Positions 11,416-14,758 of a stretch of DNA of 48,383 nt are shown here, one piece after another. The DNA is from a bacterium. GTDB taxonomy: Bacteria; Bdellovibrionota; Bacteriovoracia; Bacteriovoracales; Bacteriovoracaceae. The translations under genes and the position numbers were made by a program. Every line of letters begins with the position of its first letter. Within the stretch, counting starts at the first letter, position 1. The notes below the pieces were generated by a model. The model was not told where the DNA came from. It saw only the letters and a list, made by a program, of their open reading frames with translations, and did not search any database. The DNA is taken from positions 1 to 48,383 of the forward strand of contig JAUHVL010000025.1 of the NCBI GenBank assembly GCA_030425045.1, written 5' to 3'.

Positions 11416-12288
11416 ATGATTGGTATTAAACTAGCTGGTGGCCTTGGAAATCAGATGTTTCAGTACGCTCTCGGGCGTGCACTAAGTGAAAAGACAGGGC
11501 TTCCGCTTTATCTTGATATTGCATGGTATTATCATATACCCAGTACTGATACGCAAAGAACCTTTGATCTCAATTGTTTTGATATCAAAGGTAATATCTT
11601 TAGAAGTGACGATGTATCTCCCTTTTCATTCCACCGTATAAAGTTTTTGGAAAAAGTTATGAGAAAACTTTCTCAAAAAAAACTACTTCCACTAAAAGAA
11701 CTTTTTGTAGAGGAAAAACCGGGGTTTGATGAAAGAGTATTAGCATTTAACCAAAAAAAATATTTAGATGGTTATTGGCAATCGCCAAAATATTTTCAAG
11801 AGATAAGAGAGATTCTTTTAAAAGAGTTTTCCCTGACTGATTTAAATGAATTCGATCATAAGATGATCTCTAAGATGAATGATTCTCATTCTGTTAGCAT
11901 TCATATTAGAAGAGGGGATTACGTTTCAAATGAATACGCTAAATCAGTTCATTTAGTTTGTGATAGAAACTACTACGATTTGGCACTAGAAAAAATTAAA
12001 AGCATCGATCGAGACGTAAAACTATTTTTCTTTAGCGATGATCCAGCATGGGTCAAAGAAGAATTTGGTAATCTCGACATAGAAGTTATAGAAGGAAATG
12101 ATGATCGGCCTTGGGTAGATATGCATCTCATGAGTCAATGTAAGCATCACATAATTGCTAATAGCTCTTTTAGTTGGTGGGGCGCTTGGCTTAGTGAAAG
12201 AGAGGGGCAAACGATTGCGCCAAAAATATGGTTTACCAATGGTGATGAAATGAATGACCTTATTCCCAATTATTGGATTAGGTTATGA
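11416..12288 (+). CDS. Glycosyltransferase family 11, alpha-1,2-fucosyltransferase-like
   Basis: A 290-residue GT11 enzyme. GGLGNQMFQYA at residues 8-18 and HIRRGDY at 163-169 are the diagnostic motifs, the latter binding the GDP moiety. FFFSDDPAWV and SSFSWWGAWL near the C-terminus are also characteristic. It would transfer L-fucose from GDP-L-fucose, normally to a galactose residue. The nearby GDP-mannose dehydratase-like gene could supply the precursor, but the GDP-fucose synthase is not here. The start has no ribosome-binding site and lies six bases after a -10-like hexamer. It overlaps the next gene by 4 bp. Confidence 0.92.
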   Translation: MIGIKLAGGLGNQMFQYALGRALSEKTGLPLYLDIAWYYHIPSTDTQRTFDLNCFDIKGNIFRSDDVSPFSFHRIKFLEKVMRKLSQKKLLPLKELFVEEKPGFDERVLAFNQKKYLDGYWQSPKYFQEIREILLKEFSLTDLNEFDHKMISKMNDSHSVSIHIRRGDYVSNEYAKSVHLVCDRNYYDLALEKIKSIDRDVKLFFFSDDPAWVKEEFGNLDIEVIEGNDDRPWVDMHLMSQCKHHIIANSSFSWWGAWLSEREGQTIAPKIWFTNGDEMNDLIPNYWIRL

Positions 12289-13214
12289 AATCAAAAATTT
12301 CTGTTATTCTTCCTGTATACAATGCCGAAAAATATTTAAAAGAAGCAATTGAAAGTCTTCTTGATCAAACTTATCCTCATTTTGAAATTATTGCTTTTGA
12401 TGATGGAAGCACTGATTGTTCTGCTGAAATAATTAAGTCATTTAAAGATCACAGAGTGAAGTATTATAAAAATGAGGCTAATAGTGGTCTTATAACAACA
12501 TTAAACAATGCTCTTGCTGTAGCGTCGGGTGAGTATATTGCTCGTATGGATGCTGATGATATTTGTCTTCCTGATCGTTTTAAAAAACAAGTTCAGTATA
12601 TGAAGATGAATGATGTTGATGTACTGGGAACAGAAATTTGTTTTATCAACGACGAAGGTAAAAGAATTGGCCTAGGAGTTGGTAAATACCCTGGGATGAA
12701 AATAAGTCCTTATACTTTTTTACAACGTTGCCCTCTTTATCATCCAACGGTGATGTTTAAGAGAAAGGTTGTTGATCGCGCTGACTTCTATGATAAAAAT
12801 TATCCTCATGCAGAAGATTATGAGTTATGGCTAAGGCTTTCTAAAAACTGTAAATTAGACTTACTGGATGAGCCGTTACTTTTTTATCGAGTCCACGGAG
12901 AAAGTATTACATCGAATAATTCAAAACAGGCCATACAAAGTGTTAGTGATGCACTTGAAAGACATCTTGGTCACTATCATAAGGGAATTTTACCAAAAGT
13001 GAGGTTTTCTGAGTTGAGAGAAGAGCACGATAAAAAGGCCGTTTTAAATTTTTGGTTAAATATTAGAGACAAAATAGATAATGTTTTTCTTGCGCAAAAT
13101 ATTATCAGACTTTACTTTCCCAAAGTGTTACCGCAATTATTTGGTCTTTCAATTAAAGATTATATGATCGCGTACTATTTTTTTACTCGAAGTGTTGTTC
13201 GAAAAAAATTATAA
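12285..13214 (+). CDS. Glycosyltransferase family 2
   Basis: A 309-residue GT-A enzyme. ISVILPVYNAEKYL at the N-terminus, FDDGSTD as the first Asp motif, ARMDADDICLP carrying the DxD metal site and HAEDYELWLR as the catalytic ED motif are all present. The C-terminal 90 residues are basic and amphipathic, consistent with loose membrane association. Its ATG overlaps the GT11 stop codon (ATGA-type junction), so the two are translationally coupled. It ends the plus-strand operon that begins at 8211, and its stop codon is immediately followed by repeat copy B. Confidence 0.9.
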   Translation: MKSKISVILPVYNAEKYLKEAIESLLDQTYPHFEIIAFDDGSTDCSAEIIKSFKDHRVKYYKNEANSGLITTLNNALAVASGEYIARMDADDICLPDRFKKQVQYMKMNDVDVLGTEICFINDEGKRIGLGVGKYPGMKISPYTFLQRCPLYHPTVMFKRKVVDRADFYDKNYPHAEDYELWLRLSKNCKLDLLDEPLLFYRVHGESITSNNSKQAIQSVSDALERHLGHYHKGILPKVRFSELREEHDKKAVLNFWLNIRDKIDNVFLAQNIIRLYFPKVLPQLFGLSIKDYMIAYYFFTRSVVRKKL

Positions 13215-13526
13215 ACTGATGTTTCTAAAAGAGAATGTTTCATTTTTGAAATTTAAGCTACTTTTGATAATCCCATAAAAACGTCCTTGTTTTTGGACAT
13301 TTAAAATGCTCCCGTCGTGGTCGCACCCACTTCGTGGGCAAGTTTTAAACATCCCTTTTTTTAAAATAGGAGGTGGCCAATACTTGCCCGAAGGGTCGGG
13401 GCAGGATGGCCCGATCTTGGTTATCGTAAAACATGGAAGTTTTAATTTATTTTCTGAAAGTATCAGGAACTTTATAGATGTTACGATTTTACGTTTAAAG
13501 TTTATCTCAAATCAGACGCATCATCT
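13213..13526 (+). repeat. Long palindromic intergenic repeat, copy B (complete, about 310 bp)
   Basis: This copy fills the 326-bp space between two convergent genes. It starts at the stop codon of the GT2 gene and runs close to the stop codon of the C-methyltransferase. Alignment with copies A and C shows similarity along the whole length and near identity in the core (13278-13443). Structure: inverted-repeat arm 13278-13293 against 13428-13443; hairpin CCCAC/GTGGG at 13326-13338; long stem 13372-13382 with 13415-13425; and hairpin TGCCCGA/TCGGGGCA at 13385-13403. The outermost arms resemble each other around AACTGAT. No transposase or conserved reading frame is present. It could be a non-autonomous mobile element, a structured RNA or a recombination site; the sequence alone does not decide. 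Confidence 0.9.
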
Positions 13527-13540
13527 CAATAAAATTTAAT

Positions 13541-14758
13541 TTAGAAAATTTGAACTTCCGGTACATAGGTAATCCATTTACGATTAGCACTAAAGTCACC
13601 TTCTTTTTCCATAATTTCTTTTCTATGGTTCCATGCAAATAAAAGAGCATAGTCAGGAAAGTCTTCTTTGAAAGACTCATAAGGTTTAATCGGAATATGT
13701 TTTCCAGGAGAGACTTTACCTTGTTTGAGTGGGGTAGTGTCACTGATAAATTCGATAAGCTCACGATCAATATTACAATAGTTCAAAACGGTTGTACTTT
13801 TCGAAGTAGCGCCATAGCCCACAACACGTTTTCCTTCATTTTTTAATTTTTTAAGGAGCCCTACAAGATCTTCTCTCGATTTCTCAACATTAGCTCTAAA
13901 GCGTTCAAAGGTTTCAGGTTTATCGAGTCCAAGTTCTTTTTCTTTTGTTATGAGTTTGGCAACGTTTTCTGCAGGTTGGTAAGCACCTTTTCTCGCAATA
14001 TAATATCTCATCGATCCACCATGAGTGGGTTGAGCTTCGACATCAATAAGTTCTAAATTAAATTTTTCAGAAAGGTAAGAAACAGAAATCGCTGAAAAGA
14101 AAAAAACATGCTCATCATAAATTTGATCATATGAAGTCTTTTCGACAATATCACCGAGATAGGGGTCTTCATAAACAAAAACACCTTTTTCGGAGAGTAG
14201 CTTTTCGACACCAGAAAAAATAGAGTCGATATAAGGGATATGGCAAATAACATTGGCCGATAAAATAGCATCTGCTGGCCCAAACTTGTCTCTCGTTTCT
14301 GCTGCGAGATCGTAGTCAAAAAAGCGAGATGTCACTCTAATACCTTTTTCTTCAGCAACTTTTGCAACATTTTCTGATGGTTCGACACCAAGGTGCTTAA
14401 TATTTTTTTCAGCAAAGTTTTTAAGCATGATCCCATCGTTGCAGCCAATTTCAACAACAAAAGGATTAGGATTTTGAGTGAGAAAACGTGTTGTTACAGT
14501 TTCTGCAAAGTTTTTAAAATGCACCTGCATATGTTTTGAAAGAGATGAGAAAAATGGATATTCTCCATGGAACATTTTTTCTCTATCCGGCTGATCAATC
14601 AGTTGAACCATATTGCAGTTTTCACAATGGCCTACTTTCATTTCAAAAAAATATTCATCATTACTTTTTTCTTCTGGAATAAATCCATTTGCAATTGGTT
14701 GCGGCCCAAAGTTAATAAAGGGCTCGTAATTTGAATTACAGACACGACATTGACTCAT
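13541..14758 (-). CDS. SAM-dependent sugar C-methyltransferase (TylC3/NovU/KijD1-like, three-domain)
   Basis: A 405-residue protein with the full architecture of the sugar C-methyltransferase family. The N-terminal zinc-binding domain has CRVC at residues 4-7 and CENC near 46-49. The central SAM-binding domain carries VEIGCNDG, and the C-terminal domain carries VVGYGATSKSTT. Such enzymes add a methyl group to C3 (or C5) of dTDP-4-keto-deoxysugars, some with a 3-amino group. The Fuc3N/Qui3N-type intermediates made by the rml/fdt module are therefore plausible substrates. It appears to be a single-gene unit with a strong ribosome-binding site (AGGAGAAAAAG) abutting the start. It converges on the upstream operon across repeat copy B. 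Confidence 0.88.
   Translation of the reverse strand: MSQCRVCNSNYEPFINFGPQPIANGFIPEEKSNDEYFFEMKVGHCENCNMVQLIDQPDREKMFHGEYPFFSSLSKHMQVHFKNFAETVTTRFLTQNPNPFVVEIGCNDGIMLKNFAEKNIKHLGVEPSENVAKVAEEKGIRVTSRFFDYDLAAETRDKFGPADAILSANVICHIPYIDSIFSGVEKLLSEKGVFVYEDPYLGDIVEKTSYDQIYDEHVFFFSAISVSYLSEKFNLELIDVEAQPTHGGSMRYYIARKGAYQPAENVAKLITKEKELGLDKPETFERFRANVEKSREDLVGLLKKLKNEGKRVVGYGATSKSTTVLNYCNIDRELIEFISDTTPLKQGKVSPGKHIPIKPYESFKEDFPDYALLFAWNHRKEIMEKEGDFSANRKWITYVPEVQIF

Follow-up and report, generated by a model that had tools for sequence, protein, structure and literature searches.

The window analyzed here, a stretch of 48,383 nt, is the whole of contig C71 in a 3.97-Mb, 91-contig draft genome of a Bdellovibrionota bacterium (Bacteriovorax-like, provisionally Bacteriovoracaceae), whose AsnRS has Bacteriovorax sp. 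DB6_IX as its closest named relative (64%). A glycosyltransferase family 2 gene (12285-13214, + strand) and a convergent downstream C-methyltransferase gene (13541-14758, - strand) meet at a repeat (13212-13523) that, as the sequence-only reading had noticed, occurs three times in the window in one orientation. Aligned by BLAST to the family consensus of 318 bp, this middle copy is a full one with a decayed right terminus (13212-13528, + strand). The other two are the right part of a copy cut by the contig start (1-181, + strand) and the left part of a copy cut by the contig end (48194-48383, + strand). They resemble flanking direct repeats because the contig ends truncate them, and further contigs of the genome likewise terminate within copies of the repeat. 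The earlier idea of direct repeats flanking the sugar-gene modules of the window thus describes an effect of the assembly, and no direct sign of the proposed module swapping by recombination was seen.

BLAST of the source genome gave 42 matches to the repeat, the best non-self match (E = 1e-105) being far above chance. Twelve extra copies, too diverged for BLAST, were picked up by a covariance model of the core; most have 182-186-bp cores, and their ends are eroded yet recognizable. One of them (L209) has a 9/9 duplication, CTAATGATT, as judged by eye. With end-only matches included, the genome has about 55-64 loci: ~64 are counted, but copies split over two contigs enter twice, so the distinct ones may number about 55. 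A family of only three copies, which would have spoken against the sequence-only reading, was therefore not what we found. No Rfam model matched the window above its gathering score (only chance-level matches appeared at E<=10), in line with the earlier statement that the repeat belongs to no known family. Searches of phages, plasmids, and viral contigs gave no exact or near-sequence match to the repeat, and the exact core motif was found in none of the other genomes (84,980 genomes searched). At two loci (L017:2537-3027 and L030:2484-2927) a young copy is inserted beside an older, eroded one. The left arm at L030 was apparently replaced via gene conversion from the neighboring copy; recombination between copies is thus possible. 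The copy at L064:1527-1784 carries an internal deletion between TTTAAAA repeats and has lost most of its left module.

The aligned copies define a 318-bp unit with no transposase and no conserved reading frame, as had been claimed. Most full copies carry 24-bp terminal inverted repeats, TAAACTGATnnnnTnAAnTGGAnAT, with few mismatches at both ends. In the window the left terminal repeat, TAAACTGATGTTTCTAAAAGAGAA, is partly decayed (13212-13235, + strand); the upstream glycosyltransferase gene ends within it, the stop codon forming bases 1-3 of the repeat. The right one is decayed (13505-13528, - strand). The 16-bp sequences at 13278-13293 and 82-97 are indeed exact reverse complements, but they are internal hairpins (hp0, see below) and not the termini, the true ends being located ~65 and ~75 bp outward of them. 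On either side of full copies there are 9-bp direct repeats such as TAAGTTTTA, TATTTCTTA, AAATTCTTA, and TAAATCTTT, identical in 11/25 cases and with at most one mismatch in 17/25, compared with 2.5% in a control that paired flanks from different copies. The terminal repeats match those of IS1-like elements of the same bacterial family at 17-20 of 23-25 bases (closest shuffle p <= 5e-5). We concluded that the repeat is a non-autonomous transposon (MITE) with IS1-type ends, and its mobility is well supported. Independent mobility of the core alone was considered for L017, L030, and L044, which lack one or both arms; decay is the simpler explanation, because the arms are eroded or later MITE insertions adjoin. 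The bacterial MITEs CREE/NEMIS, ERIC, RUP, and QMITE (PMC10969869, PMC2229807) are likewise short, intergenic, and without transposase, and have terminal repeats, target duplications, and a stable RNA fold; the present repeat differs in its IS1-type ends, its two inverted GGA-loop modules, its strong stop-codon bias, and its 9-bp duplications, where CREE/NEMIS have a TA dinucleotide. YPAL/RU-2 of Yersinia (PMC2229807) is also a small structured mobile sequence located near or across dyad symmetry, but its repeats are internal and its duplications range from 3 to 26 bp, whereas here the repeats are truly terminal and the duplications 9 bp.

The source genome has one complete IS1-like element, 1000 bp long, on C82 (locus L074). 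Its two ends agree with those of the MITE at 19 and 18 of 25 bases, and it lies at a stop codon with TAATTTTTT on both flanks (9/9 duplication). At this locus (C82:28500-32500, element at 1064-2063) the insertion point coincides with the stop codon of a long gene, and a 302-aa open frame overlaps the right end of the element. The C82 transposase scored 64.4 bits against the NCBIfam IS1 model (NF033558) and that of a relative, genome G149, 39.8 bits; because both fall under the cut-off of 100, we term the mobilizer IS1-like and do not file it as IS1. In the bacterial family, 46/129 genomes encode related IS1-like transposases. The element ends follow the pattern AAACTGnCCnnnTnAATTGG, and wherever both sides are readable there is a 9-bp duplication (9/9 at L094, L096, L108, and L113), so that the 8-9-bp duplications and ~23-bp ends of the IS1 family are both seen. 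Widespread in the family (L083-L113) and below the IS1 cut-off in the two cases tested, these transposases may form an undescribed IS1 subgroup. The elements share with the IS1 family (NF033558) a Zn-ribbon transposase, ~25-bp ends, and 9-bp duplications; they differ from it in having a single ORF, in scoring below cut-off and, in a subset, in carrying an RNA module 3' of the transposase. The draft assembly, in which multi-copy elements are missing or cut, yielded no autonomous partner sharing the exact MITE ends; on contig C85 just the 3' part of another IS1-like gene is left. Because the MITE ends and 9-bp duplications resemble those of IS1-like elements, the transposase moving the MITE is most likely IS1-like and would act in trans, and its autonomous element should bear TAAACTGAT ends. 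The two PF01609 transposases of the genome were dropped as candidate mobilizers once the IS1-like ends had matched.

The MITE is not randomly placed. Of 62 loci, 53 are no more than 25 bp from the stop codon of a gene (expected 16%, p about 5e-33), and 25/45 loci with both flanks known are convergent (expected 12-15%, p about 1e-10). These p-values are approximate, since the insertion boundaries were projected to the full consensus length and gene calling followed a simple ORF rule; the copies entered the test as independent cases. The baseline came from 0.79 Mb (~20%) of the same genome, where convergent regions make up 12.4% of intergenic bases and 14.7% of gene pairs, and 16% of intergenic positions fall in the 25 bp that follow a stop codon. 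The preference for convergent junctions in the sequence-only reading, whose absence was to count against it, is therefore borne out, whereas a special seat at polysaccharide genes is not: other copies neighbor genes of all kinds, for ArgRS, Der GTPase, thiolase, uridine kinase, TatD, proteases, and transporters. The sugar genes around the window copy are atypical of the family, and polysaccharide genes have no special link to the repeat. The related elements of other genera described below show similar placement, with 7/8 ends in genome G088 and 2/3 right ends in G149 lying <=13 bp from a stop codon. On G149 C156 (L218) and G088 C28 and C31 (L266, L267) the terminal repeat TAAACTGA provides the stop codon of the adjoining gene, and insertion into the last codons is therefore tolerated. 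The stop-codon placement is statistically established and is compatible with targeting or with selection after insertion.

The interior of the MITE consists of two diverged, inverted copies of a module of ~75 nt made up of a hairpin and a three-way junction; the homology between the right and left halves scores z 6-10 in seven copies. Read in the transposase sense, each half gives a three-way junction (an outer stem, the short-loop hairpin B, and hairpin A, hpA) followed by the short end hairpin hp0, and it is these end hairpins that had been noted as 16-bp repeats. In the window the left module lies on the - strand, with hp0 AAAACAAGGACGTTTT at 13278-13293 (an AC-ANGGAN-GU type loop) and the three-way junction at 13296-13353 (outer stem GACATTTAAAAT/GTTTTAAACATC; hpA without GGA). 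The right module lies on the + strand, with its three-way junction at 13372-13425 (outer stem GGTGGCCAATA/TCTTGGTTATC), hpA with GGA in the loop at 13396-13414 (TCGGGGCAGGATGGCCCGA), and hp0 AAAACATGGAAGTTTT at 13428-13443 (AC-ANGGAN-GU). With the diverged copies found by the covariance model, the outer stem of the left half shows compensatory changes (TTTAAAA/TTTTAAA, CTCAGAA/TTCTGAG, CTTAGAA/TTCTAAG, and CTCATAA/TTATGAG) and reads AGCTGAA/TTCAGCT in a relative from another genus. Over our own copies and the other-genus relative, 32 doubly changed cells were counted against 11.7 in shuffles, and the signal was lost when the structure was slid by 1-3 columns. The RNA fold is stable (z -3.2 to -4.4). 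The RNAalifold consensus of closely related copies showed no covariation, and the fold from the diverged copies was used instead.

Next, we searched for the module in other genera. A left-module covariance model trained on our own copies and G149 was run over 129 genomes (the order set being the same as the family set). G149 matched at 1e-13, as a member of the training set; independent matches were obtained in G088 (seven places, E down to 1.7e-6) and G022 (E=9e-5). The module is thus present in three genera beyond the source, in all of which IS1-like terminal repeats adjoin it, at distances of ~10 to ~65 bp that differ between genera. Contig C271 of G149 contains an IS1-like transposase gene together with the left end and breaks off at the transposase stop codon; the final 55 bases of C271 recur exactly at the ends of three further contigs, which carry the module and the right terminal repeat. 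One 55-base overlap common to three contigs indicates a multi-copy element broken by assembly with k=55, and the overlaps therefore place the module between the transposase stop codon and the right end of an autonomous element of ~1.12 kb. In G088, at least eight contig ends lie inside the same IS1-like right end (C5, C19, C26, C27, C28, C31, and C32; L266-L273), and the IS1-like element itself is absent from the assembly. Since no convincing module match was found at 30 other IS1-like loci of the family, the module is confined to a subset of these elements. Weak module-like matches in G063 and G029 (E about 0.01) are at ordinary gene ends and were left out of the count. The weak hits L275 1855-1929 and L276 1849-1919, at ordinary gene ends in two other genera, have AAAACATCCnTGTTTT followed by a hairpin and lack IS ends; they may represent free-standing relatives of the module.

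The two hairpins of each module, hp0 and hpA, have the fixed bases CA-n-GGA-n-G, and the two GGA of a module are 28 nt apart. The transposase-sense sequence of hp0 is AAAAC-ANGGAN-GTTTT. Across all copies aligned by BLAST, the minority frequency at its 14 non-N positions averages 0.022 (left) and 0.008 (right), compared with 0.44 and 0.21 at the two N positions and 0.12-0.19 in the MITE arms and spacer. The strict ANGGAN hp0 motif is found in 41/45 left and 42/45 right modules, against a genome background of 0.05 per kb of strand; hpA is less uniform: its fixed bases are C-A-N-G-G-A-U-G, the N varies freely (0.39), and the closing pair changes on both strands of the stem (CG, AU, UA). The hp0 of G149 is ACAAGGAUGU. 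GGA is at the loop in just 30/549 ordinary gene-end hairpins of the source genome, and hp0 as a generic terminator sequence of the genome was discarded, as outside the family it occurs ~once in 1.19 Mb. The ANGGAN hexaloop is the motif bound by RsmE/CsrA proteins (PMC3791407, PMC7652899), the spacing reported as optimal for dual-site CsrA binding is >18 nt (PMC7652899), which the 28 nt here exceed, and the CsrA SELEX consensus is RUACARGGAUGU (PMC6692469). The free N positions of hp0 and hpA coincide with those of the hexaloop and of the SELEX consensus, and the loops are therefore read as putative CsrA motifs. The source genome has a csrA gene (C34:112002-112178, PF02599 E=1.6e-26), and from the loop pattern, the stem covariation, and the presence of csrA we infer CsrA binding. 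Several observations speak against it: the motif was recognized post hoc, and loop conservation is not independent per copy, because the copies have common descent; G088 hairpins retain GGA without the A two bases upstream; the N is lost in many main-group hpA loops, and the left-module hpA has no GGA in main-group copies; the hp0 stems are weak (-0.5 to -2 kcal/mol); and most family IS1-like elements are without the module. A literature text search for CsrA and Bdellovibrio gave nothing specific.

We give about an even chance to the explanation that an IS1-type MITE spreads CsrA-binding RNA modules to gene ends. An unlikely competitor is a selfish MITE whose hairpins act as bidirectional transcript ends, as terminator or 3'-end stabilizer, with insertion at convergent gene ends harmless or useful and GGA incidental. 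Location at stop codons and convergent junctions, the stable fold, and one terminator-like match in the window copy would all suit such a role, yet that match is near the shuffle level (1 vs 0.4) and has a poor T tail, hp0 is too weak for an intrinsic terminator, and a terminator needs no fixed loop, while here loops are fixed and stems vary. We consider improbable a role at the DNA level, in which the inverted modules would extrude as hairpins or a cruciform, or bind the transposase or a host factor, during IS1-type transposition. The modules do lie inside mobile-element ends in four genera and the MITE halves are inverted, but the distance from terminal repeat to module is variable between genera and most family IS1-like elements have no module, both of which speak against this role. 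A long-range duplex between the two hp0 was rejected as a selected structure: the N sites are unpaired in 26/36 and 30/36 copies, and because precisely these positions mispair, such a duplex fails to explain the pattern.

The covariation might also be a by-product of template-switching correction of imperfect palindromes, without any selected structure. Correction of quasi-palindromes by copying errors is a known process and the element has palindromic symmetry on several scales; it would go unexplained why loops stay fixed where stems vary and why the module is retained across genera, and we regard this account as very unlikely. Least credible of all is the view that the copies are direct repeats prone to recombine and so to swap modules of polysaccharide genes: at ~90% identity recombination is feasible and the L030 copies look gene-converted, but the flanking genes are of all kinds and the outer window copies are contig ends.

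In the CsrA-based explanation, an IS1-like transposase would move the MITE in trans, its autonomous copy having been lost or left unassembled in the source genome. The MITE sits at or just behind stop codons and brings two inverted modules, of the kind also known from the right end of an autonomous element in a related genus, each of which would fold two hairpins with CA-N-GGA-N-G loops on the transposase-sense strand. Because the modules are inverted, a transcript from either side would carry one module in the binding sense; CsrA binding would need ~200 nt of read-through, since transcription from a flanking gene has to cross the antisense module before it reaches the sense module. Host CsrA would then bind the module hairpins within the 3' regions of mRNAs. 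The module of the autonomous element might couple the transposase mRNA to the host Csr system, and the dozens of MITE copies might serve as dispersed CsrA-titrating sites or as tags on individual mRNAs. CsrB, CsrC, RsmY, and RsmZ RNAs likewise have repeated GGA-loop hairpins with a spacing suited to dual-site CsrA binding, whereas the putative sites here are dispersed and mobile, in inverted pairs in 3' regions, two per strand. The IS200 tnpA 5' RNA (PMC12594629) is also a structured insertion-sequence RNA proposed to affect host regulation; it is located at the 5' end and binds Hfq, whereas the present module is at the 3' end of an IS1-like element and has CsrA-type loops. Searches of the open-access literature yielded neither an IS1-associated MITE bearing a module of this kind nor a transposon end that binds CsrA.

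We offer tentatively, as a somewhat doubtful extension, that an IS lineage may have acquired a CsrA-binding RNA module and that its MITEs may have put ~60 two-strand sites at gene 3' ends, a transposon-built counterpart of CsrB/RsmZ tuning the Csr regulon. If so, an element with a DDE transposase would carry at its end a conserved structured RNA aimed at a global post-transcriptional regulator, and transposition would be a route for multiplying regulator-binding sites through a genome. This would link transposition with Csr control in Bdellovibrionota, here in a bacterium related to the predatory Bacteriovorax.
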